Below, piece by piece: positions 9,139 to 46,384 of a stretch of DNA of 64,000 nucleotides; positions within the stretch are counted from its first letter, which is position 1; every line of letters begins with the position of its first letter. This DNA is from Geomonas oryzisoli (GTDB taxonomy: Bacteria; Desulfobacterota; Desulfuromonadia; Geobacterales; Geobacteraceae). The position numbers and the translations under genes are program-made. The DNA is taken from the NCBI RefSeq assembly GCF_018986915.1, contig NZ_CP076723.1, forward strand, positions 496,001 through 560,000, given 5' to 3'. The notes beneath the pieces were generated by a model, which was not told the DNA's origin, searched no databases, and saw only the letters and a program-made list of their open reading frames with translations.

Positions 9139-9169
9139 CAGTGATCCTCCTTTTGAATGAATAAAACCC

Positions 9170-9448
9170 GTTCAACGTTCAAGGTTCAACGTTCGACGGA
9201 GTGAAAACGTACCGGATTATACCAGAGTGACTTGCACCTGCATCCTTTCTGGCAAAAAAAACAAGAAACAGATGCCGTTCAATGTTCCAGGTTCGACGTT
9301 CGACACAGTGAAAGCGCACAGGCAAACATCACAGTGACTTGCACGGGCATCTTCCCCGGCAAAAAAAGCAGCAATGCAGAAGCCATAGCTGAACCCATGC
9401 CTCGTGGGGTGAGTATAACCTCGAACGTTGAACGTTGAACCTTGAACG
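9170..9448. repeat. GTTCAACGTT repeat array with degenerate 90-bp duplication
   Basis: The 323-bp gap holds two imperfect direct copies of an approximately 90-bp unit (9170-9263 and 9276-9370). Each begins with GTTCAAxGTTC repeats and ends with TGACTTGCAC, GGCATC/GCATCC and GGCAAAAAAA. An inverted block of the same GTTCAACGTT unit closes the gap at 9423-9448. No gene is visible here. Confidence 0.8.
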
Positions 9449-9461
9449 GCCGTTCAGGCGG

Positions 9462-26804: not shown

Positions 26805-26911
26805 AAGGGACTGGCTCCGTCAGGTGCCTGTCCCTCTAGCGGAACGCTCCTTTCGGCTCAGCCAACTTTTGAAGCAGTAAGGGGACGGGCACCTGCCGGA
26901 GCCAGTCCCCC
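26805..26911. repeat. Inverted pair of GGGACTGGCTCC repeats
   Basis: Two copies of an approximately 31-bp repeat (GGGACTGGCTCC ... AGGTGCCTGTCCC) face each other at 26805-26836 and 26881-26911. Other copies occur at 33595-33628 and 46353-46384, so it is a dispersed family. Confidence 0.9.
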
Positions 26912-29682: not shown

Positions 29683-32121
29683 ATGGAAAACAGGCAGGAG
29701 ACCGAAGAACTTAATATACCGGATGTTCTGCCGCTGCTCCCGGTCCGGGACGTGGTCGTCTATCCCTACATGATTCTGCCGCTTTTCGTGGGACGCGAGA
29801 TCTCCATCGCGGCCGTCGATCACGCCCTGTCCAAGGACCGCATGATCTTTCTGGCCACGCAGAGGGACGTGGGCGACGAGGACCCTGCCCCCGAGGCGAT
29901 CTACGAGGTCGGCACGGTGGCCATGATCATGCGCATGCTGAAGCTTCCCGACGGCAGGGTGAAGATCCTGGTGCAGGGGCTCACCAAAGGGCGCATCACC
30001 GAGTACCTCAGCGAGAAGCCCTTCTACTCCGTGCGCATCGACCGGATCATCGAACCGGCGGCACCGGAGAACACGCTGGAATCCGAGGCGCTGATCCGCA
30101 CCGTGAAGGAAGAGCTGGCGAAGATCGTGGCCCTGGGCAAGGCGGTCTCCCCCGAGGTGATGGTCATCGTCGAGAACATGCAGGAGCCCGGGGCGCTCGC
30201 CGACCTGGTCGCCAGCAACATCGGCCTCAAGGTGGAGGAGGCGCAGGGGCTCTTGGAGGTGGTCGATCCGCTGGAGCGCCTGAAGAAGGTGAACGACCTC
30301 CTGAACAAGGAGAGCGAGCTCCTCAACATGCAGGCCCGCATCCAGTCCGCCGCCAAGGAGGAGATGGGCAAGAGCCAGCGCGAGTACTACCTGCGCGAGC
30401 AGTTGCGCGCCATCCAGCAGGAGCTGGGCGAGACCGATGCCAGAAGCGAAGAGATGGCCGAGCTGAGAAAGGCCATCGAAAACGCCAAGATGCCGCAGAA
30501 CGTCGAGAAGGAGGCCCTGAAGCAGCTCGGGCGCCTGGAGCAGATGCACCCTGACGCCGCCGAGGCGGGGATGCTGCGGACCTTCCTGGACTGGATGGTG
30601 GATATCCCCTGGGGCAAGGCGACCAAGGACGCCCTGGAGATAAACCGCGCCTCCGAAATCCTCAACGAGGACCATTACTTCCTGGAGAAGGTGAAGGAGC
30701 GTATCCTCGAGTTCCTGGCGGTCAGGAAGCTGAAGAAGAAGATGAAGGGACCGATCCTCTGCTTCGTGGGGCCTCCCGGCGTCGGCAAGACCAGCCTGGG
30801 CAAGTCCATCGCCCGCGCCATGGGGAGAAAGTTCGTGCGCATCTCCCTGGGCGGGGTGCGCGACGAGGCGGAGATCCGCGGCCATCGCCGCACCTACGTG
30901 GGCGCGCTGCCGGGGCGGATCATCCAGGGACTCAAGCAGGCAGGCTCCAACAACCCGGTCTTCATGCTGGACGAGCTGGACAAGCTCGGCTCCGACTTCA
31001 GGGGCGATCCCTCCTCCGCACTTTTGGAGGTGCTCGATCCGGAGCAGAACAACAGCTTCTCGGACCACTACATCAACCTTCCCTTCAACCTGTCCAACGT
31101 GATGTTCATCGCCACGGCGAACCAGATGGACACCATTCCGGGCCCCTTGCGCGACAGGATGGAGGTGATCAACCTCTCCGGCTACACCGAGGAGGAGAAG
31201 CTCGGTATCGCCAAGCGCTACCTCGTGCCGCGCCAGGTGAAGGAAAACGGCATCACCGAGGAGATCGCGGTCTTCTCCGAGGAGGCGCTGCGCACCATCA
31301 TCGCCAAGTACACCCGCGAGGCGGGCCTTAGGAACCTGGAGCGCGAGATCGGCAGCGTCTGCCGCAAGGTGGCCAGGAAGTTCGCCGAAGGGAAAGGGGA
31401 GAAATTCGTCATCACCGCCGGGACGGTGCCCAAGTACCTCGGGCCGCCCAAGTTCCTGCGCGAGGAGGAGATGGAGAAGAACGAGGTCGGCGTGGTTACC
31501 GGTCTCGCCTGGACCCCGGTTGGGGGCGAGGTGCTCTTCGTCGAGGCGACGGTCATGAAAGGGAAGGGGGGGCTGACGCTCACCGGCCAGCTGGGCGACG
31601 TGATGAAGGAGTCGGTCCAGGCGGCGCTTTCCTACATCCGCTCCAAGACCGCGGAACTGAACATCCCCGAGGACTTCAGCTCCAGCATCGATATCCACGT
31701 GCACGTTCCGGCCGGCGCCATCCCCAAGGACGGCCCCTCGGCCGGGGTGACCATGGCGACCGCGCTGGTATCGGCACTCACCAAGATCCCGGTGCGCAAG
31801 GAAGTCGCCATGACCGGCGAGATCACCCTGCGCGGCAAGGTGCTCCCCATCGGCGGCCTGAAGGAGAAGATCCTTGCCGCGGCGCGCCTGGGCGTCACCA
31901 CGGTGATCATCCCGATACAGAACAAGAAGGATCTTGAGGACGTCCCCAAGACCATCCTCAAGAAGCTCAAGATAGTCACCGCCGCCAACATCGACGACGT
32001 GTTGGCGGTCGCCCTGGAGAAGTTTCCGCCCCCGGCCCCCAAGGCGGCCAAGCCTGAACCGCCGAAAACCAAGGTCAGGACCCGCGTCCCGGTCCCGGCA
32101 CCGGTGAGGGGCAAGGCTTGA
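29683..32121 (+). CDS. lon: ATP-dependent protease Lon (LonA type)
   Basis: An 812-residue AAA+ serine protease that removes damaged and regulatory proteins. The N-terminal substrate-binding domain (about residues 1-210) is followed by the AAA+ domain with Walker [10 protein letters not shown] (about 362-370) and Walker [10 protein letters not shown]. The protease domain has the catalytic Ser686 in KDGPSAG and the Lys further on (GGLKEK). The C-terminus has a Pro/Lys-rich extension. AAGGAGAGG before the ATG is optimal. The stop codon overlaps the thiL start. Confidence 0.97.
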
Positions 32122-33176
32122 AACTTGCCGAGCTGGGCGAATTCGGCCTGATAGACAGGATCAAAGCAAACGTCGCCGCGTCACCCTCGGTGCTCTTGGG
32201 CATCGGGGACGACGCGGCGGCGCTGTCTCCCACCCCCGGACAGGTCACCCTGATCACCTCCGACATGCTGCTGGAGGGGGTCCACTTCGACCTCTCCTTC
32301 TGCGATCCGTTCACCCTGGGCAAGAAATCCCTCTCCGTCAACCTCTCCGATGTCGCCGCCATGGGCGCGCGGCCGCGCCACTTCCTGCTCGGCGTCGCGC
32401 TCCCCAAGGATGTCCCGCTCGAATTCATGGACGGCTTCATGGCGGGCATGCTGGAACAGGCCGGTCGCTACGGCGCGACCCTGGTGGGCGGGGATACCTG
32501 CGCCTCCAAGGGGGGATTGGCCATCTCGGTTACCGCGCTGGGCGAGCAGCGTCCGGAACTGGTTTTGAAGAGAAGTGGCGCGAGGCCGGGGGATCTCATC
32601 TGCGTGACCGGAACGGTCGGGGACGCTGCGGCGGGGCTGAAACAGCTCTTCGCGGGGGTGCGGGACGGCTTCCTGGTGGCGCGCCAGTTGGATCCGACGC
32701 CAAGGGTGGAGACCGGGGTGGCTCTGGCCGAGGCGGGTGTCGTTACCGCCATGATCGACGTAAGCGATGGGGTGCTGCAGGACCTGGGGCACATCTGCGA
32801 GATGTCGGGAGCGGGGGCGCGTCTGGAGCTTGCCCGGCTCCCGCTTTCCGAGCACTACTTGGCTTACTGTGGGCACAATGATCATGCTCCCCTCGCCCTC
32901 TGGGAGAGGGGCGGGGGTGAGGGCGCTGCTACCGGCAAGCTGCCTCCTGGCCACGACCCCTTTGCCCTGGCGCTTTCCGGCGGCGAGGACTACGAACTGC
33001 TGTTCTGCATCCCTGCCGGCAAGGAGTCCGAGGTGGCGGCCATCTGTGCCTCCGTGAACCTCCCTGTCTCCGTGATCGGGGAGATCACCGCAGGCACCGG
33101 CGTCCAACTGACCGCTCCCGACGGTTCATCCTACACACCGCCCCGGCGCGGCTTCGACCACTTCGGCGCCGACTAG
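32118..33176 (+). CDS. thiL: Thiamine-monophosphate kinase ThiL with in-frame repeat insertion
   Basis: A 352-residue enzyme that phosphorylates thiamine monophosphate to the active cofactor thiamine diphosphate. The family core is clear: GIGDDAAAL near residue 35, SVNLSDVAAMGARPRHFLL, GGDTCAS and the C-terminal ALSGGEDYELLF. The start is TTG at 32118, overlapping the lon stop (TTGA). Residues about 257-272 (PLALWERGGGEG) come from a GC-rich palindromic repeat read in frame; this may explain the extra length compared with the usual about 320-330 residues. It ends tail to tail with YjbQ, another thiamine gene. Confidence 0.9.
   Translation: MKLAELGEFGLIDRIKANVAASPSVLLGIGDDAAALSPTPGQVTLITSDMLLEGVHFDLSFCDPFTLGKKSLSVNLSDVAAMGARPRHFLLGVALPKDVPLEFMDGFMAGMLEQAGRYGATLVGGDTCASKGGLAISVTALGEQRPELVLKRSGARPGDLICVTGTVGDAAAGLKQLFAGVRDGFLVARQLDPTPRVETGVALAEAGVVTAMIDVSDGVLQDLGHICEMSGAGARLELARLPLSEHYLAYCGHNDHAPLALWERGGGEGAATGKLPPGHDPFALALSGGEDYELLFCIPAGKESEVAAICASVNLPVSVIGEITAGTGVQLTAPDGSSYTPPRRGFDHFGAD
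32888..32925 (+). repeat. Palindromic repeat inside thiL
   Basis: A GC-rich unit (CCCCTCGCCCTC, GGGAGAGGG, GGGGTGAGGGCG blocks) inside the thiL coding sequence. It is read as PLALWERGGGEG. A related unit lies in the gene at 38266-40194. Confidence 0.85.
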
Positions 33177-33571
33177 TCCGCGCAGATCCTCACAGCCACC
33201 TTCCTTTCCCTCGGACCATCGAACTCGCAGAAGTAAAGCGCCTGCCAGGTGCCTAAAAGGAGCCTGCCCCGGTCGATCAGGAGCCGCTGGCAGCTCCCGA
33301 CCAGGGTCGACTTGACGTGTGCCGCGGAATTCCCCTCGGCGTGGGTGAAGTAGTGCTCGTCCGGCACCAGCCGGTCCAGGCAGTTGGCGATGTCCCTCTT
33401 TACCGCCGGGTCCGCCCCCTCGTTCACCGTGATCCCCGCCGTGGTATGCATGACGAAGACGTCGCAGCTGCCGCTCCCCACCATGCTGGCCGCAATGAGG
33501 TTCTGCACCATCGCCGTGATGTCGATCAGCTCCGTCCTCTCCCTGCTTTTCAGTGTCAGGTACTGGATCAT
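33173..33571 (-). CDS. YjbQ-type secondary thiamine-phosphate synthase
   Basis: A 132-residue protein of the YjbQ family with the conserved VMHTTAGITVNEGADPAV core, HAEGNSAAHVKS and the final GTWQALYFCEFDGPRERKV split by conserved strands. The Escherichia coli member has weak thiamine-phosphate synthase activity. The placement opposite thiL supports a thiamine link. Start ATG at 33571 has GGAGGGAC; longer frames exist upstream but run through a dispersed repeat and the TPR gene, so they are rejected. Confidence 0.9.
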   Translation of the reverse strand: MIQYLTLKSRERTELIDITAMVQNLIAASMVGSGSCDVFVMHTTAGITVNEGADPAVKRDIANCLDRLVPDEHYFTHAEGNSAAHVKSTLVGSCQRLLIDRGRLLLGTWQALYFCEFDGPRERKVAVRICAD

Positions 33572-33594
33572 CCGTCCCTCCGTAAGCGCTGCTA

Positions 33595-33628
33595 AGGGGA
33601 CTGGCTCCGCAGGTGCCTGTCCCCCTTT
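33595..33628. repeat. Single copy of the GGGACTGGCTCC repeat
   Basis: Copy of the dispersed family (GGGGACTGGCTCCGC AGGTGCCTGTCCCCC) in the gap between the YjbQ and TPR genes. Confidence 0.88.
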
Positions 33629-33654
33629 GGCTCTGTCCCCCTTTGAGATGCAGG

Positions 33655-34155
33655 CTACTTCTTGAAGAGGCTGCTTCTCAGCTTGCCCAGGTACTTGTTG
33701 AGCGGGTTTCCCCTGGCGAGGAAGGGGAGTACCGGTTTCTCCCGATGTCCCAGCGTCTGCAGCAGCCTGGTGATGGCGGGGTTTCTCCCCACCCTGAGTC
33801 CCAGGTGCAGCGCCCTGATGGCCTCTTTCTTCCTGCCGGCGGAGAGGTAGATGGTGCCCAGGCGCAGAAAATGGTTCGAGTTCTTGGGCTCCTGCTTGAC
33901 CGCCTCCTGACATAGCGCGAGGGCGGTCCGGATGTTGCCGGTGTGCTGGGCCAGGGCCAGGGCGTACAGGGAGAGATGCTCGGGCGAACGCCGTCTTTGC
34001 AGTGCGGCGTGCAGGTAGCGGTGGGCGGCGGCGAACTTGCGCGCCTCCAGGGCCTCGCTGCCCAGGCGCACCAGCTCCTCGGTCTCCATGTCGTCCAGGC
34101 CGGTGTCTTTGGGGGCTTCGTACAAATCTGATTTGGTCATCTTGGCGTCGTTCAT
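33655..34155 (-). CDS. Small TPR-type protein
   Basis: A protein of about 166 residues with two or three tetratricopeptide-like helix pairs (LGSEALEARKFAAAHRYLHAAL; LALCQEAVKQEPKNSNHFLRLG; AGRKKEAIRALHLGL split over two repeats) and a basic C-terminal end. No signal peptide is visible. The start is uncertain among three nearby Met codons at 34161, 34155 and 34140, none with a strong ribosome-binding site. It has no clear functional link to its neighbours. Confidence 0.72.
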   Translation of the reverse strand: MNDAKMTKSDLYEAPKDTGLDDMETEELVRLGSEALEARKFAAAHRYLHAALQRRRSPEHLSLYALALAQHTGNIRTALALCQEAVKQEPKNSNHFLRLGTIYLSAGRKKEAIRALHLGLRVGRNPAITRLLQTLGHREKPVLPFLARGNPLNKYLGKLRSSLFKK

Positions 34156-34363
34156 GATCATGTGCTCGCACGAAGTAGCCGCAGCTGGCTGCGGGTGGGC
34201 GGGGCTGGTGGGGTGGTCCCAAGTCTTATTAAGATCGTATACTATAGCACTTAATCTTAGAAAAGACATCCTCCGAATCGGTCCGTACCGCACCGATGGC
34301 GGCTTTAGCCCGGGCGGCGGGCAGGGTTGAAAAAAAAAGGGATTTGTGTTCTAATCTGCGGCT

Positions 34364-34852
34364 GTGGAACAGTGCGCATACATAGGGCTGGGGAGCAACA
34401 TCGGCGACCGGGAGCTGAAGCTCCTGATGGCGGTAGCGGAGCTGGGCAAGCTGCCGCGCACCCGCGTCACCGCCGTTTCCCCCTTCTACGAGACCGAACC
34501 GGTCGGAGGGGTGCCCCAGGACAACTTCTACAACGCCGTGGTGCGCCTCAGCACGGAACTGGCGCCGCTTGAGCTTCTGGAGCGGCTGAAGAAGCTGGAA
34601 ACCGGTGTGTTTCACCGTGTGCCGTCGCAGCGCTGGGGTGCCCGCAGCATGGACCTCGACATCCTCCTCTACGGCGAGCTGGTCTTGGAAAGCGAACAGC
34701 TCACCATCCCGCATCCGCGCCTGGCGGAACGTCGCTTTGCCCTCCAGCCGTTGTCCGACATCGCACCGGACCTGGTGCACCCGATCCTGGGCAAGCGCAT
34801 TGTCGAACTGTTGACTGAGCTGGCCTCCCCCGAGAAGGTGGTCAGGATTTGA
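34364..34852 (+). CDS. folK: 2-amino-4-hydroxy-6-hydroxymethyldihydropteridine pyrophosphokinase
   Basis: A 162-residue folate biosynthesis enzyme (HPPK) that transfers pyrophosphate from ATP to the pterin. The signature RWGARSMDLDILLYG is near residues 88-102, with GLGSNIGDRE at the start and the magnesium-binding Asp pair in MDLD. The start is GTG at 34364, giving the conserved AYIGLGSN right away. It opens a plus-strand group with a YHS protein and the transaldolase. Confidence 0.95.
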   Translation: MEQCAYIGLGSNIGDRELKLLMAVAELGKLPRTRVTAVSPFYETEPVGGVPQDNFYNAVVRLSTELAPLELLERLKKLETGVFHRVPSQRWGARSMDLDILLYGELVLESEQLTIPHPRLAERRFALQPLSDIAPDLVHPILGKRIVELLTELASPEKVVRI

Positions 34853-34862
34853 GGGGGGACGA

Positions 34863-35099
34863 GTGAAGTTTCTGATCTGGGCGCTGCTGGCGTACCTCGT
34901 GTACCGCATGTTCGTCGGCAAGTCGGCCGAAAAGATAGCTAAAAAGGAACCTGCCGCCGCCGAGACCTTCCAGGACCCGGTTTGCGGCGTGTACATAGCC
35001 GAGGCCGACGCGGTGGTCGGCAGGTTGGAGGGGAAGCGTTATCACTTCTGTTCCATGGACTGTTTAAAAAAATTCGAAGAGATGCAGCAAGGGCACTAA
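34863..35099 (+). CDS. YHS/TRASH-type membrane protein
   Basis: A 78-residue protein with an N-terminal membrane helix (about residues 2-16) and a cysteine-containing YHS-like domain (DPVCGVYI ... [12 protein letters not shown]). The Cys pattern suggests metal binding. The start is GTG with GAGGGG seven bases upstream. It sits between folK and the transaldolase and may be co-transcribed with them, without an obvious shared role. Confidence 0.82.
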
Positions 35100-35118
35100 C
35101 AACATAACCGGAGGAAAG

Positions 35119-35763
35119 ATGAAGTTTTTTATCGACACAGCGGACGTTAAAGAGATTCGGGAGGCCAACGAACTGGGACTGGTGGACGGCGTCACCACCA
35201 ACCCCTCCCTGATCGCCAAGAGCGGCCGGCGTTTTGAGGAAGTGATCAAGGAGATCACCGAGATCGTGGACGGCCCTATCTCCGCGGAGGTCATCTCCCT
35301 GGAGCACGACGGCATGATCGCCGAGGCAACCGAGCTGGCCAAGATCCACCCCAACATCGTCATCAAGCTCCCGATGACCCCGGAAGGGCTCAAGGCGACC
35401 AAGACCCTGTACAAGCAGGGGATCAAGACCAACGTCACGCTGATCTTCACCCCGATGCAGGCCCTGCTTGCCGCCAAGGCCGGCGCCACCTACGTCTCTC
35501 CGTTCGTCGGCCGCCTGGACGACATCTCCCAGGACGGCATGGGGATCATCGAAGAGATCAGGACCATCTTCGACAACTACGGCATGGACGCCCAGATCAT
35601 CGTGGCCAGCATCAGGAACCCGGTGCACGTGCTCAATTCCGCTCTCATCGGCGCGGACGTCTGCACCATTCCGTACTCGGTCATGCTGCAGCTTGCCAAG
35701 CACCCGCTCACCGATGCCGGCATCAAGAAATTCCTGGAAGACTGGGAGAAGGTTCCCAAGTAG
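35119..35763 (+). CDS. Transaldolase / fructose-6-phosphate aldolase family enzyme
   Basis: A 214-residue aldolase of the small transaldolase family (TalC/FsaA type). The Schiff-base Lys83 lies in VIKLPMT and the family core [15 protein letters not shown] and SPFVGRLDD is present. It either splits fructose-6-phosphate or works as transaldolase in the pentose phosphate pathway; small members from bacteria like this are usually transaldolases. GGAGGAAAG precedes the ATG. A GGGCGGGTC hairpin follows at about 35818-35838. Confidence 0.92.
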
Positions 35764-35817
35764 AAGGCGAAGCGGAAGGTTTCCCTTCCGCGGTACGGGT
35801 AACAAAGACGTTACTGA

Positions 35818-35838
35818 GGGCGGGTCCTGGACCCGCCC
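35818..35838 (+). terminator. Terminator-like hairpin after the transaldolase gene
   Basis: A perfect 9-bp stem (GGGCGGGTC / GACCCGCCC, 3-base loop) followed by TTGCTTT, between converging genes. A second hairpin (GCGGAAGG / CCTTCCGC) lies just before it at 35772-35791. Confidence 0.75.
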
Positions 35839-35855
35839 TTGCTTTATGGTGGGGG

Positions 35856-36467
35856 TTACTCCGCGGGGTCCGCGCTCTTGCCGCGCTGCAGGCGAACGTA
35901 CACGGCGATGATCACGACGCTGGCGATGACGACGCCGATGAGCGCCTGGTGCGAGTAGCGCATGATCAGCTCCTGGTTGCTCCCGATGAAGTAGCCGATG
36001 AAGGTGAGCACGGTGACCCAGATCCCCGCGCCGAGCAGGGTGTAGAGGGAGAACTTGATGTGGTTCATCCCGGCCAGGCCCGCGGGAAGTGAGATCAGGT
36101 GGCGTACCACCGGCAGCAGCCTCCCGATGAAAGTCGAGATCTCGCCGTGGTCCTTGAAGAAGCGCTCGACTTTGGCGAACTTCTCCTCGGTGATGAAGAC
36201 GTACTTGCCGTACTTCAGGATCAGCGGACGGCCGAGGTAGTGCGCCGCGAAATAGTTGGCGTAGGCGCCGATGAGGCTACCCACGGTGCCGCAGACGATG
36301 GCCACCACCATGCTCATCTGCCCCTGCTGGGCCAGGTAACCCGCCGGCGGCATCACCAGTTCGCTGGGTATGGGGAAGACGGAGCTCTCCAGGGCCATCA
36401 GGAGAAAAATGCCGGGGTAGCCCATTGCCCCTATGGTTTCGACCAGCCACTGTACTGCTGCATGCAT
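35856..36467 (-). CDS. DedA-family membrane protein
   Basis: A 203-residue protein with several membrane segments and the DedA motif region (ESSVFPIPSELVMPPAGYLA near residues 27-46; FIGRLLPVVRHLISLPAGLA near 112-131). DedA proteins help flip lipids such as undecaprenyl phosphate or phosphatidylethanolamine and support proton gradients. Start ATG at 36467 has AAGGAG. A shared gap of 150 bp separates it from the divergent pyrophosphatase gene. Confidence 0.9.
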   Translation of the reverse strand: MHAAVQWLVETIGAMGYPGIFLLMALESSVFPIPSELVMPPAGYLAQQGQMSMVVAIVCGTVGSLIGAYANYFAAHYLGRPLILKYGKYVFITEEKFAKVERFFKDHGEISTFIGRLLPVVRHLISLPAGLAGMNHIKFSLYTLLGAGIWVTVLTFIGYFIGSNQELIMRYSHQALIGVVIASVVIIAVYVRLQRGKSADPAE

Positions 36468-36618
36468 GCCTTGCTCTCCTTTGTCGCGCGTTCTTTGCCG
36501 GCGCCATTCTATACGGCGCGCGCCAAAAAAACGACTAATTTAATTTTTCCGTCCTGCGCAGGGGGCGGCCGGGAACGAGGTTTCCGCCGACAGACGCAGG
36601 ACGCACACGAAAGGAAAC

Positions 36619-38265
36619 ATGGACAAGCAGATTTTCGTTATCGGCCACAGAAACCCGGACACCGACTCGATCGCCTCGGCCCTCGCCTACGCCCACCTGA
36701 AGCGGGCGCTTGGGGACGAGCGGGTCACTGCCGCCATGGCCGGCAACCTCAACCCGCAGACCACCTGGCTTTTGGGGAGGCTCGGCATCGAAGCCCCGCT
36801 GTACCTGGCCGACGTGCACCCCAAGGTGCGCGACGTGATCCAGCGCACCCCGATCACGGTGGCCGCCGATGCCCCGCTTTTGACTGCCCTGGAGCAGTTC
36901 CACCACAACTCCATCCGGGTGCTGCCGGTGCTGGACGGCGCCGGCGTCCCCAAAGGGGTGATCCCGCTCAGAAAGATCGCGGAGCGCTCGCTGGTGACCG
37001 GCGCCGAGTCGCTGCGACTGGTTTCCGCCTCGCTCGCCTCCCTGGCCGCCTGCCTTCAGGGAAGCTTTCTCTCCGGCTGTGCCGATCCCGCCGTGGAGAG
37101 CCTGCACCTCTTCGTCGGGGCCATGGCCGAGGAGTCTTTCATCGACCGGATCTCCGGCTTCGATCCCGCCACCTTGGTGGTCGTGACCGGCGACCGCACC
37201 TCGATCCAGAAGGCGGCCATCGAACGCGGCGTGCGCCTTCTGGTGGTGACCGGCGGACTCCCGGTGACCGACGAGGTGGTGCGCCTGGCTGAGTCCCGCG
37301 GGGTGGCGCTTCTCTCCACGCCGCTGGACACCGCGGCCACCATTTCCCGGGCACGCCTGGCCACCCCCGCGCTGGCCCTGGCAGTCCCGACCTTCGAGAG
37401 CGTGTCGGTCGGCGAACCGCTGGGACGGCTGCGGGACAAGCTGTTGCACTCCGGTGAGACCGCCGTGCTGGTCCTCGAGGAGGACGGCACCCTGGCTGGC
37501 GTCGCCACCAAGTCTTCGCTGTTCGCACCGCTTCCCTACGCCCTGATCCTGGTGGACCACAACGAGCTCACCCAGTCGGTGCCGGGCGCCGAGGACCTGG
37601 AGATCCTCGAGGTGATCGACCACCACAAGCTGGGCAACCCTCCCACCAGCAACCCGATTCCCTTCATTACCGCGCCGGTCGGGAGCACCTGCACCATCGT
37701 GGCGTCGCTCTACGAGGAGCACGAGGTGGAGCCCCCCGCGCAGATCGCGGCACTCTTGCTGGCAGGGATCCTCTCCGACACGGTGATCCTCAAGTCCCCG
37801 ACCACGACGCCGAAGGACCGCGCCACCGTGGCGCGGCTTGCCGCCGTCGCGGGGCTCGACTGGGAGGCCTTCGGCGCCGAGATCTTCGCCGCGTCCGGGG
37901 CGCTCTCAGGCTACGGCAGCCCCGAGCGCGTGGTCGGTTCCGACTTCAAGCTCTTCAGCCAGGGCGAGCTCACCTTCGGCGTCGGCCAGGTCGAGGTGTT
38001 CGGCTTCGGCGAGTTCAACGAGATGAAGGCCGAGCTGCGCCAGGCGCTTGCGGCGCGGCGTGAAAAGGAAGGTCTGGAGCTCGCCGGGCTCATGGTCACC
38101 GACATCTCCACCGAGAGCACCATGTTCCTCATGGAGGGGGGGCAGGCCTTCACCAGGTTCATGGGGTACCCGCAGCCCGAGCCGCACGTCTTCGAGATGA
38201 AGGGCGTCATGTCGCGCAAGAAGCAGCTGGTGCCGCACATGATCAAGGTGCTGGGAGGACGCTAG
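36619..38265 (+). CDS. DHH-family manganese-dependent inorganic pyrophosphatase with CBS and DRTGG domains
   Basis: A 548-residue enzyme of the type II (DHH/DHHA2) family that splits pyrophosphate to phosphate. Motifs: GHRNPDTDS (residues 9-17), VDHNE, DHHK (near 334-337) and GSTCT. Between the DHH start and core lie two CBS repeats (about 65-120, 250-300) and a DRTGG-type region, as in nucleotide-regulated pyrophosphatases. AMP/ATP binding to the CBS repeats would control the activity. Its stop is directly adjacent to the next gene's ATG. Confidence 0.9.
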   Translation: MDKQIFVIGHRNPDTDSIASALAYAHLKRALGDERVTAAMAGNLNPQTTWLLGRLGIEAPLYLADVHPKVRDVIQRTPITVAADAPLLTALEQFHHNSIRVLPVLDGAGVPKGVIPLRKIAERSLVTGAESLRLVSASLASLAACLQGSFLSGCADPAVESLHLFVGAMAEESFIDRISGFDPATLVVVTGDRTSIQKAAIERGVRLLVVTGGLPVTDEVVRLAESRGVALLSTPLDTAATISRARLATPALALAVPTFESVSVGEPLGRLRDKLLHSGETAVLVLEEDGTLAGVATKSSLFAPLPYALILVDHNELTQSVPGAEDLEILEVIDHHKLGNPPTSNPIPFITAPVGSTCTIVASLYEEHEVEPPAQIAALLLAGILSDTVILKSPTTTPKDRATVARLAAVAGLDWEAFGAEIFAASGALSGYGSPERVVGSDFKLFSQGELTFGVGQVEVFGFGEFNEMKAELRQALAARREKEGLELAGLMVTDISTESTMFLMEGGQAFTRFMGYPQPEPHVFEMKGVMSRKKQLVPHMIKVLGGR

Positions 38266-40194
38266 ATGAAGAAATTCCTGGATCGGATCGCGCAAGGGGT
38301 GTTGATCGGCGACGGCGCCATCGGCACCATGCTCTACGCAAAGGGGGTGGCGCCGGAGGCGAACTTCGAGCACCTGAACCTGGTGCGCCCGGAGTTGGTG
38401 CTGGAGCTGCACCGCGAGTACCTGGCCGCCGGTGCGCAGGTCATCGAGACCAACACCTTCGGTGCCAACTGCGCCAAGCTATCCGCCATCGGACTCGGAG
38501 GGAAGGTCGCCGAGATCAACCGCAAGGGCGCCCAGCTCGCCAGGCGCGCCGCCGACGGGCAGGACGTCTTCGTGGCGGGCTCCATCGGCCCACTGGGACG
38601 CGGCAAGAGTGAGCTGTCGCCGGAGCAGGTCGCCGACTGCTTCCGGGTACAATCGGCGGCGCTCGCCGAGGGCGGGGTGGATCTCCTGATCCTGGAGACC
38701 TTCTCCGAACTGGACGAACTGCTGACCGCTCTGGCGGCGGCCAAGGAGATCGGTCTCCCCGTGGTGGCGAACCTCGCTTTCGGGGAGGGGGGGCGCCTTC
38801 CCGGAGGAGCCTCCGCCGAGGGGGCCGCGCGTGCGCTCGCCGCCGCCGGCGCAGACGTCGTGGGTGCCAACTGCGGCGCCGGGCCGCTGGAACTGCTGGC
38901 GACCGTGAAGCGGATCGCGGCCGCCTGTTCGCTGCCGCTGGCCGCCTATCCCAACAGCGGCTTCCCCGAGTACATCGACGGCCGCTACATCTACCGCACC
39001 ACCCCGGAGTACTTCGCGGATCGCGCCGAGGAGCTGGTCGCCGCCGGTGCCTCCCTGGTCGGCGGCTGCTGCGGCACCACGCCGGAGCATATCCGCGCCA
39101 TGACCGCAAGGATGCAGGGGAGCCTGAATTTTACCCTCGCCCTCCGGGAGAGGGTGCCCGAAGGGCGGGTGAGGGCGCTGCCACAAAGCGAGAGTATTGC
39201 CGTCAGCGAAGCCCTCACCCCCAGCCCCTCTCCCGCCTGCGGACCGAAGCCCTACGGTGGGCGAAGGCCCGAAGGGCGAGGGGAGCTTCAGGCAGGTTTC
39301 CTCGCCCATTGGGGCACCGAACCGGTGATCACGGTCGAGCTCGACCCGCCCAAGGGGCTCGATTGCGCCCGTGTGCTGGCCGGAAGCCGCGCTCTCAAGG
39401 AGGCGGGAGCCCACGCCATCAACCTGGCCGAGAACCCGCTGGCCCGCGTGCGCATGGGTAACCTGGCGCTCGCCTCGCTGATACGCCGCGAGGTGGGGAT
39501 CGAGGTGATCGCGCACGTGACCTGCCGTGACCGCAACCTGATCGGGATGCAGTCCGAGCTGATGGGGGCGAGCCTCATGGGGGTCACTTCCATACTGGCC
39601 GTTACCGGCGATCCGGCGAGCCTGGGCGACGAGGCGGGTGCGTCCTCTGTCTTCGACCTCAACTCATTCACGCTGATCAAGCTCTTGAGCGACCTGAACA
39701 GCGGGGTGAACGCCTTGGGCAATCCCATCGGCTCCGGCACCGGTTTCACCATCGGCGCCGCCTTCAACCCCAACACCCAGAACATGGAGGTGCAGGTGCG
39801 GCGGCTGGTGAAGAAGGTGGCCAACGGCGCCCGTTTCGCCCAGACTCAACCGATCTACGACATCGCGCGGTTTGAGGAGATGATGGAGCAGACCGCGCAC
39901 CTGGGCATTCCGATCCTTTCCGGCGTGCTGCCGCTCGTTTCCGGCAGGAACGCCGAGTTTTTGCACAACGAAGTGCCCGGCATCGTCATCCCCGAGGAGA
40001 TCCGCAAGCGCATGGCCGGCAAGAGCGGCGACGAAGGTGTCGCCGAAGGTCTCGCCATCGCCAGGGAATTCATCGAGAGGGCCAGCGCCAAGGCCGGCGG
40101 TTTCTACCTGATCCCCCCCTTCGGCAAGTACGAGATCGCGGTGGAACTGGTCCGTTACATCAAGGACCTGCGCCGCCCGCAAGAAATCCCATAA
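38266..40194 (+). CDS. Bifunctional homocysteine S-methyltransferase / methylenetetrahydrofolate reductase with in-frame repeat linker
   Basis: A 642-residue two-domain enzyme. Residues about 1-287 form the homocysteine methyltransferase (GDGAIGTMLY, FGANCAKL, zinc-binding Cys in GANCG and GGCCGTTP). Residues about 343-640 form the flavin-dependent methylenetetrahydrofolate reductase (TVELDPPKG, HVTCRDRN, GDPASLGD). It makes methyl-tetrahydrofolate and methionine in one polypeptide. The linker at about residues 288-342 is built from an inverted pair of GC-rich palindromic repeats read in frame. The ATG follows the previous stop codon directly and uses its upstream GGGAGGA. Confidence 0.92.
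   Translation: MKKFLDRIAQGVLIGDGAIGTMLYAKGVAPEANFEHLNLVRPELVLELHREYLAAGAQVIETNTFGANCAKLSAIGLGGKVAEINRKGAQLARRAADGQDVFVAGSIGPLGRGKSELSPEQVADCFRVQSAALAEGGVDLLILETFSELDELLTALAAAKEIGLPVVANLAFGEGGRLPGGASAEGAARALAAAGADVVGANCGAGPLELLATVKRIAAACSLPLAAYPNSGFPEYIDGRYIYRTTPEYFADRAEELVAAGASLVGGCCGTTPEHIRAMTARMQGSLNFTLALRERVPEGRVRALPQSESIAVSEALTPSPSPACGPKPYGGRRPEGRGELQAGFLAHWGTEPVITVELDPPKGLDCARVLAGSRALKEAGAHAINLAENPLARVRMGNLALASLIRREVGIEVIAHVTCRDRNLIGMQSELMGASLMGVTSILAVTGDPASLGDEAGASSVFDLNSFTLIKLLSDLNSGVNALGNPIGSGTGFTIGAAFNPNTQNMEVQVRRLVKKVANGARFAQTQPIYDIARFEEMMEQTAHLGIPILSGVLPLVSGRNAEFLHNEVPGIVIPEEIRKRMAGKSGDEGVAEGLAIAREFIERASAKAGGFYLIPPFGKYEIAVELVRYIKDLRRPQEIP
39131..39292. repeat. Inverted pair of palindromic repeats inside the methionine/folate fusion gene
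   Basis: Copy 1 (39131-39178; CCCTCGCCCTCCGGGAGAGGG then a GGGTGAGGGCG end) and inverted copy 2 (39216-39292; CCCTCACCCCCAGCCCCTCTCCCG then a small inner palindrome and GGGCGAGGGGAGC). Both are fully open in the gene's frame and code for a flexible, Pro/Arg/Gly-rich linker. Confidence 0.88.
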
Positions 40195-40221
40195 TTCCCA
40201 TGACTCCGATTATTCAGCTTT

Positions 40222-40235
40222 TTGACCTGCATCAA
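40222..40235 (+). promoter_or_regulatory. FNR/CRP-family type binding site
   Basis: TTGACCTGCATCAA is a near-perfect FNR-type palindrome (TTGAT-N4-ATCAA with one change). Its centre is only 34 bp before the start codon of the sirohaem reductase gene, so it may repress, or the true promoter lies elsewhere. Confidence 0.6.
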
Positions 40236-40261
40236 TTTCAATCCAGACAAAGGAGCAGATG

Positions 40262-40948
40262 ATGAACACCAAGGACATCCTGGAAAAAGGCGCCATCCTG
40301 CAGCGTGACCGCGAGACCTACGCCATCGCCCCGCACATCCCGGGCGGCTTCACGGACACCGCCACCCTGAGAAAGATCTGCGACGTGGCCGACAAGTACA
40401 AGCTGGAAGTGAAGCTCACCTCGGCCCAGCGCATCGCCATGTTCGGCGTGAAGGAAGAAGAGCTCGACGCGGTCTGGGCCGATCTTGCCCAGGCCCCCGG
40501 CGCCGCCATCGGCCTGTGCGTCAGGAGCATCAAGATCTGCCCGGGCACCCAGTGGTGCAAGAGGGCGGTGCTCGATTCGGCATCGCTAGGGCTCAAGCTG
40601 GACAAGATCTACCACGCCATGGAGCTCCCCAACAAGATGAAGATGGGGGTTTCCGGCTGTCTCTTGGCCTGCTCCGAGTCCGGCGTCAAGGACATCGGCA
40701 TCGTCGGCCACAACAAGGGGTGGCGCATCCTGGTGGGGGGGAACTCCGGTCCCAGGCCGCGCCTGGCGGAACTCCTGGTGGACAACATCCAGACCGAGGA
40801 AGAGGTGCTGGAGATCGTCGCGAAGGTGGTGGAAGTCTACAAGAACGACCCGCAGCAGGGGCGTCTGGGCAGGCTGATCGAGGAGAAGGGGATCGAGGCA
40901 TTCAGGGCGGCCGTGCTCGGCAGCCAGGACGCCGTGGTCGGAAAGTGA
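40262..40948 (+). CDS. Small stand-alone nitrite/sulfite reductase-type sirohaem protein
   Basis: A protein of about 228 residues with the ferredoxin-like half-domain of nitrite/sulfite reductases and the cofactor-binding Cys motifs CPGTQWC and CLLACSES (CX5C and CX3C) that hold a 4Fe-4S cluster bridged to sirohaem. At less than half the usual length, it resembles the small assimilatory-type (Fsr-like or DsrC-independent) reductases of anaerobes. The substrate may be sulfite or nitrite. ATG at 40262 is preferred because GGAG lies six bases upstream. An FNR-type site lies upstream. Confidence 0.85.
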   Translation: MNTKDILEKGAILQRDRETYAIAPHIPGGFTDTATLRKICDVADKYKLEVKLTSAQRIAMFGVKEEELDAVWADLAQAPGAAIGLCVRSIKICPGTQWCKRAVLDSASLGLKLDKIYHAMELPNKMKMGVSGCLLACSESGVKDIGIVGHNKGWRILVGGNSGPRPRLAELLVDNIQTEEEVLEIVAKVVEVYKNDPQQGRLGRLIEEKGIEAFRAAVLGSQDAVVGK

Positions 40949-40949
40949 T

Positions 40950-41765
40950 ATGGACGCAGCGATAATGACTGAAACAAAGCCTGCGCGGGAGTCTTCTACG
41001 TCCCTCATCGAGGACGCGCTGTTCACGCGCATCAAGAACCGTGTCGGCAAGGCGATCCACGACTTCAACCTGATCTCCGAGGGGGACCGAATCGCCGTCG
41101 CGGTCTCCGGCGGCAAGGACTCGTACTCCATGCTGCACATGCTGGACACGCTGCGCCGGCGCGCCCCGGTGCGCTACGAGCTGGTCGCCATCAACATCGA
41201 CTCCGGCTACCGCGGTTACCGTGCCGACATCATCGAGGACCACCTGAAGGAGCACGGCTTCACCTACCACATGGAGAAGACCGAGCACTACGACATCATC
41301 TCGGAGAAGCGCCGTCCGAACTCCTCCTACTGCTCCATCTGCGCGAGGCTCAAGCGCGGCACGCTCTACACCCTGGCGCAGCAGATGGGATGCAACAAGC
41401 TGGCGCTTGGCCACCACATGGACGACTTCATCGAGACGCTGCTTTTGAACCAGTTCTTCGTGGGGTCGCTGAAGGCGATGGCTCCCAGCATGCTGGCCGA
41501 CAACGGCGTCACCACGGTGATCAGGCCGCTGGTCTACGTTCCGGAGAAGGAGATTATCCCGTTCTCCCGCAACAACCGTTTCCCGGTTGTATGCTGCTGC
41601 TGCCCGGTCTGCGGCACGGCCGATTTGCAGCGCAAGAAGATGAAGGAGTTGTTGGAGACCTTGGAGCGCGACAACCCCTTGGTGAAGAAGAGCCTTTTGA
41701 AGGCCCTGTCCAACGTCCACCCGCGCCACTTGCTGGACAAGGGCTTGACCAGGATCCCTTCCTGA
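40950..41765 (+). CDS. ttcA: TtcA-family tRNA thiolation-type ATPase
   Basis: A 271-residue PP-loop protein: nucleotide loop SGGKDSYSM (near residues 54-62), then CxxC (YCSIC near 131) and a Cys-rich end (VVCCCCPVCG) that together would hold an Fe-S cluster. TtcA adds sulfur to cytidine 32 of tRNA. The second Cys group with four adjacent Cys residues is unusual. The gene starts one base after the reductase stop codon, so the two are probably co-transcribed; the link to a sulfite reductase type enzyme is suggestive of sulfur supply but is inference. Confidence 0.88.
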   Translation: MDAAIMTETKPARESSTSLIEDALFTRIKNRVGKAIHDFNLISEGDRIAVAVSGGKDSYSMLHMLDTLRRRAPVRYELVAINIDSGYRGYRADIIEDHLKEHGFTYHMEKTEHYDIISEKRRPNSSYCSICARLKRGTLYTLAQQMGCNKLALGHHMDDFIETLLLNQFFVGSLKAMAPSMLADNGVTTVIRPLVYVPEKEIIPFSRNNRFPVVCCCCPVCGTADLQRKKMKELLETLERDNPLVKKSLLKALSNVHPRHLLDKGLTRIPS

Positions 41766-42935: not shown

Positions 42936-42947
42936 CGAACACGGTCC

Positions 42948-43035
42948 CCTCCCCCGGAGGGGGAGGGACAGGGAGGGGGACGCGCGGCGGCTCTTACAAT
43001 CTTCCCCCCTCCCAGCCTCCCCCCTCCGGGGGGAG
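42948..43035. repeat. Inverted pair of GC-rich palindromic repeats
   Basis: Copy 1 (TCCCCTCCCCCGGAGGGGGAGGG then GGGAGGGGG, about 42948-42981) and its inverted partner (about 42999-43035) face each other in the gap between converging genes. Same architecture as the pairs at 39131-39292 and near the IS element. Confidence 0.85.
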
Positions 43036-46327: not shown

Positions 46328-46352
46328 AGCTTCGACCTCTGAAAGTAGTGAA

Positions 46353-46384
46353 AAGGGGACAGACACCTGTGGAGCCAGTCCCCT
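46353..46384. repeat. Copy of the GGGACTGGCTCC repeat (inverted)
   Basis: Fourth copy of the dispersed family, in the gap between lolA and cheC, starting right before the lolA ribosome-binding region. Confidence 0.85.

Follow-up and report, generated by a model that had tools for sequence, protein, structure and literature searches.

The gene thiL of Geomonas oryzisoli contains a 78-bp insertion, read in frame, whose core is a short repeat of the BoxC/PIT (triplex-motif), REP/REPIN type. We consider it very probable (about 0.88) that such an element inserted into thiL and is tolerated there as an in-frame loop, that the fusion gene metHF separately acquired a copy from the same family, and that the shared reading frame requires no special selection. 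The best reading is that of a selfish BoxC/REPIN-type element, tolerated wherever the frame is kept and a loop is added. The window, that is, the whole stretch of DNA that was analysed, is 64,000 nucleotides long and spans positions 496,001 to 560,000 of a genome that consists of a single contig of 4.85 Mb.

The thiL gene (32118..33176, plus strand, TTG start, 352 codons) codes for thiamine-monophosphate kinase, with the Pfam domains AIRS (residues 30-143) and AIRS_C (156-332). The earlier note had placed the repeat at 32888..32925; the alignment of orthologs shows the insert to be larger than the repeat (approximately 32871..32948, plus strand, codons 252-277). Inside it, the repeat search and the triplex motif both point to one unit at 32890..32924 on the plus strand, CCCTCGCCC-TCT-GGGAGAGGG-GCGG-GGGTGAGGG-C, read as PLALWERGGGEG; its first 21 bases, CCCTCGCCCTCTGGGAGAGGG (32890-32910), are read as LALWERGGGEG. 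The next 15 bases (32925..32939, plus strand), compared by eye, resemble the start of the spacer that follows units in two-unit copies, and only 2 of these 15 columns vary among the five genomes that carry the insert.

ThiL matches were obtained in all 58 genomes searched, of which 26 were aligned in detail. The near kin of the source genome (G000) are Geomonas and Citrifermentans species, including G. anaerohicana Red421 (G002), G. paludis Red736 (G004), G. azotofigens Red51 (G012) and G. propionica Red259 (G010). Eighteen of the 19 genus genomes have a usable thiL ortholog, since the best match in G018 is weak (3.4e-12). The insert is present in five of the 18 (G000, G002, G004, G012 and G017) and absent from the other 13, which show the empty site; it is 26 codons long in four carriers and 25 in G012, where the frame is still kept. 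The eight aligned outgroup orthologs have at most three residues at this position. When the insert region was searched against approximately 5.8 billion clustered proteins, two proteins were returned, both Geomonas ThiL. A ThiL ortholog with a matching peptide but no DNA repeat would have spoken against an insertion; none was seen in the orthologs, in the 33 non-carrier rows of the alignment or in the protein region search.

The insertion site is the loop ahead of the GGEDYELL motif. The earlier note had suggested modelling ThiL, and the predicted model (38 sequences, mean pLDDT 90.3) has the fold of solved ThiL, the best match being 6mfm chain B with a TM-score of 0.94 by target length. Residues 256-277, which adjoin GGEDYELL and lie between a helix ending at residue 250 and another starting at residue 283, have a pLDDT below 50. 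The insert is thus predicted to be a disordered segment, and such a flexible extra loop would probably leave the enzyme undisturbed.

The second copy lies in metHF (38266..40194, plus strand, 642 codons), which codes for a fusion of homocysteine S-methyltransferase and methylenetetrahydrofolate reductase (MetH-like/MetF). It occupies the linker between the Pfam domains S-methyl_trans (13-282) and MTHFR (352-602). The earlier note's statement that both genes share a repeat, read as LALxER in the same frame and orientation, is borne out by the translations and by the 21-mer, which recurs in metHF as CCCTCGCCCTCCGGGAGAGGG (39134-39154, same strand as in thiL). The repeat type is indeed common to the two genes, but the copies are not built alike: that of thiL is a single unit, that of metHF consists of two inverted units, and only the first of these gives LALxER. 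This first unit (39134..39176, plus strand, identified by the repeat search and the linker alignment) is read as LALRERVPEGRVRAL and has a long second loop; a spacer of 34 bases (39177..39210) separates it from the second unit (39211..39283, minus strand), which the gene reads antisense as ALTPSPSP..PEGRGEL. The latter has a loop that is 12 codons longer, a variant seen only in G000, G004 and G001. The metHF alignment covered 30 of the 58 genomes. The linker element is recognisable in nine of the 19 genus genomes, all within one clade of 11 species, of which the two other members, G011 and G012, have no recognisable unit in the linker. The region search with the metHF linker returned three proteins, all of them the fusion enzyme and one of them the window's own. 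We also observed one further unit, read antisense, in each of the metHF linkers of G004 and G009 (L076, L077). Units seem to accumulate in this linker, and there may be exchange among the copies.

It could be argued that the thiL segment is GC-rich, low-complexity sequence that arose by chance in a variable loop, and not a mobile element: the region is GC-rich, and the corresponding site of other ThiL proteins is short and varies. We regard this as having next to no chance of being correct, and reject it. In 100 shuffled windows the 21-mer had on average 0.04 hits at up to three mismatches; the full triplex motif had no hits in shuffled sequence; a block of 26 codons is found in some congeners where others have the exact empty site; and the same motif is interspersed through genomes in which the control search gives almost nothing. 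The earlier note's two separate coding insertions of one repeat type are supported, both being in-frame insertions relative to orthologs and having different sets of carriers. The two lie only 6.2 kb apart, which is striking: by our own arithmetic, a pair of sites drawn at random from 4.85 Mb would be this close in approximately 0.3% of cases. This figure is to be read bearing in mind that the pair was noticed because it falls within one window.

The thiL unit is the only match in the window (at 32890-32923) to the pattern CCCTCNCCC N3-6 GGGNGAGGG N3-4 GGGNGAGGG. This is the BoxC/PIT/TM_ECO consensus, CCCTCNCCC N3-6 GGGNGAGGG N3 GGGNGAGGG, in which we relaxed the second loop from 3 to 3-4 bases; the second loop of the thiL unit has four bases, so that the strict published consensus is missed by that one base. 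Forms with three bases occur in relatives (relaxed-pattern search), and the metHF units, whose loops are longer, do not match the pattern. The relaxed pattern has 13 matches in G000 and up to 253 (G004), and is present in 46 of the 58 genomes; the reversed control has none in any of the 58. We also defined an exact core, GGGAGAGGG N2-14 GGGTGAGGGC, which is found in 27 of the 58 genomes, with 18 copies in G000 and from 0 (G016) to 297 (G004) in its congeners; here the reversed pattern gave a single hit, in G033. Many of the copies elsewhere are inverted pairs.

The window contains other repeats. A third match to the 21-mer (42947-42967, minus strand, two mismatches) falls in a related pair of G-rich palindromes of the CCCTCCCCCTCCGGGGGAGGG type (42947-43032, arms 42951-42980 and 43003-43032), a type for which a covariance search of the same genome listed about 52 near-identical 22-base matches at 27 bits. 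A second inverted-repeat family, GGGACTGGCTCC..GGTGCCTGTCCC, is present at 26807-26909, 33595-33628 and 46351-46384, and a sequence like it adjoins a unit at locus L015. Repeats of the CCGTTCAACGTTCAAGGTTCAACGTTCGA type, direct and inverted, occupy 9168-9449.

The family lies mostly between genes, and copies within genes are rare. In G000, two of 15 distinct clusters (which cover 17 of the 18 exact cores) are in genes, namely those of thiL and metHF. For other genomes we used a codon-usage classifier trained on the long ORFs of the window, and applied it to 260 clusters (60 from G017, 57 from G002, 62 from G004, 42 from G009 and 39 from G006); these were mostly the first-listed exact-core copies, hence a non-random sample, and do not include the thiL and metHF copies. 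The threshold was relaxed before the counts were made, a stricter cut-off having given 0 of 117 clusters and being one that would miss the thiL copy. Three of the 260 clusters came out as candidates for a position within a gene. As a control, the same classifier called intragenic 336 of 424 positions chosen at random in the vicinity of such copies, and 708 of 1000 positions in the window. One candidate was confirmed; the other two are located 22 and 28 codons from the beginning of a frame that runs from stop to stop, and the real start codon probably lies beyond them. The confirmed copy (L200, G002:C11:387200-389200, minus strand) is a third in-frame unit, read as ALTPAPLPEGEG in an OmpA-family protein of more than 2000 residues; it is an insertion, absent from five aligned relatives.

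The insertions into thiL and metHF are separate events, since their carriers differ: metHF has the element in nine species of the 11-species clade, and thiL in five species inside the eight-species part of this clade. It is unlikely that the thiL copy derives from that of metHF, because their second loops are of different types. In a thiL tree calculated without the insert columns, the carriers group together as a single clade, with support of 77/87 and in 80% of 200 bootstrap trees. In a tree of thiL plus MetF, the carriers require four changes and form one clade in 0% of 200 bootstrap trees, but a single clade is not rejected (p-AU 0.149). One ancestral insertion into thiL would be the simplest reading of these trees, and recombination between species may blur its history. 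We propose that a short interspersed repeat of this type, probably non-autonomous, entered thiL in an ancestor that the five Geomonas carriers share. The loop before GGEDYELL thereby grew by 78 bp (26 codons) without change of frame, and the insert would be translated as a flexible loop, probably without disturbing ThiL. In a separate and probably earlier event, a two-unit copy of the same family would have entered the metHF linker. The only insertions to survive would be those that lengthen the gene by a multiple of three at a site able to accommodate a loop.

The earlier note also proposed that selection favours one harmless frame, that of LALxER, or that the element is confined to it. The thiL unit and the first metHF unit do agree in frame and orientation, and among 109 full single units taken from G017 and G002, 102 have this frame open. 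However, 99 of these units are open in five of the six frames, nine in four and one in three; the frame that is usually shut is one sense frame, by a TGA in GGTGAGGG, and the three antisense frames are open in 108, 100 and 109 of the 109 units. A shared frame needs no special selection, because nearly all frames of the unit are open; by our estimate, two copies would agree in frame approximately one time in five if all open frames were equally tolerated. Moreover, the six coding copies are already spread over frames: two are read as LALxER, three antisense as PLP..GEG (the additional metHF units of G004 and G009 and the OmpA-family copy of G002), and one, the second metHF unit, antisense on another codon grid. 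Selection of one frame is thus not supported, and we find it very improbable.

Another explanation is that the repeat within genes is retained because it has its own role as DNA or RNA (triplex, hairpin or binding site), or is homogenised by gene conversion with other copies, instead of being merely tolerated. The dN/dS of the thiL insert is 0.31-1.57, compared to 0.08-0.15 in the rest of the gene (10 pairs), and that of the metHF linker is 0.69, compared to 0.10; the peptide is therefore under relaxed constraint. Yet the columns of the thiL insert do not all vary alike: 10 of the 50 that belong to the unit and spacer are variable, compared to 18 of the 28 formed by the other inserted bases (Fisher p 0.0002, a rough value since the carriers share ancestry), so that the repeat is not drifting freely. 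The metHF linker has a pS of 0.184 compared to 0.414 in the rest of the gene, the variant with the 12-codon loop is patchily distributed, and the metHF pair (39134-39283), taken as RNA, has a better fold than every one of 200 shuffles (z -5.25). Against this, the RNA fold of the thiL insert does not surpass that of shuffles (z -0.90), the thiL unit with its spacer has a low pS (0.127, with a pN of 0.066) that is nevertheless within the usual range of the gene (43 of 308 windows are as low), the stem has mismatches in the thiL units of G002 and G012, and G011 and G012 do without a recognisable element in metHF. We consider a DNA-level or RNA-level function, or homogenisation, unlikely. The thiL sequences nevertheless show some retention of the repeat alongside the relaxed constraint on the peptide.

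Regarding the machinery that would mobilise the family, a local role of a RAYT was considered and found no backing at the loci examined. Four Y1_Tnp matches lie within 4 kb in G000, and no unit is present at any of 18 Y1_Tnp loci (approximately 1.5 kb on each side; four from G000 and otherwise one per genome). In G013, which contains 87 exact cores, no Y1_Tnp match was obtained at an E value of 0.001. Among the congeners, the number of exact cores (0 to 297) does not follow that of Y1_Tnp genes in any obvious way. It may be that the BoxC/PIT-type motifs of Geomonas are a mobile REPIN-like family moved by a machinery other than a recognisable RAYT, and that coding copies such as those of thiL and metHF do not drift as neutral peptide but undergo preservation or homogenisation as DNA, an idea that we find rather doubtful. 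The wide range of copy numbers from species to species should be useful for asking what moves repeats of the BoxC type.

We see here a clear case of occupied and empty sites for a BoxC/REP-type repeat that forms part of the reading frame of a housekeeping enzyme; natural orthologs of either kind are available for comparison, and odd LALxER-like segments in proteins of the genus are explained as derived from the repeat. Rfam at the gathering threshold has no match in 31000-41000. Among the top-ranked literature results, a set that leaves most subscription journals outside, we saw no account of thiL with a translated BoxC-type motif.

One of the closest known systems is the BoxC/PIT/TM_ECO intrastrand triplex motif, which, according to the accessible part of its description, is always intergenic in E. 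coli MG1655 (PMC4666352). The same part of that source describes the three-block layout seen in the thiL unit, CCCTCNCCC / GGGNGAGGG / GGGNGAGGG, and many copies per genome, occurrence across proteobacteria and inverted pairs; the Geomonas copy differs in lying within a coding sequence. Multicopy families of Geobacter bemidjiensis and G. metallireducens, from the same bacterial clade, are found between and inside genes, a likeness that is one of description only, from the available portions of the two reports (PMC2996986, PMC2700814). REPINs consist of two short palindromic units in inverted orientation, separated by a spacer, and most of them are extragenic (PMC3116915, in the portion available). 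The metHF copy and many others share this arrangement of two inverted units and a spacer, whereas the thiL copy is a single unit and the Y1 transposase genes at the 18 loci lack adjacent units. Intragenic GTAG/CGTC REPs are translated inside genes, typically as 20-30 amino acids (PMC3733652, available part); unlike these, the Geomonas units have no terminal GTAG or CGTC tag. Rickettsia palindromic elements, according to the accessible text of PMC2229807, lie in frame within genes of conserved proteins and measure 105-146 bp. The parallel with them drawn in the earlier note is apt as regards behaviour, since here too one repeat type is inserted in frame into genes of conserved proteins; we claim no membership, the Geomonas units being only approximately 35-43 bp long and their coding copies rare. 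Other bacteria are thus known to have in-frame repeats inside genes, and we regard the copies in thiL and metHF as a real and fairly ordinary instance of tolerated repeat insertion.
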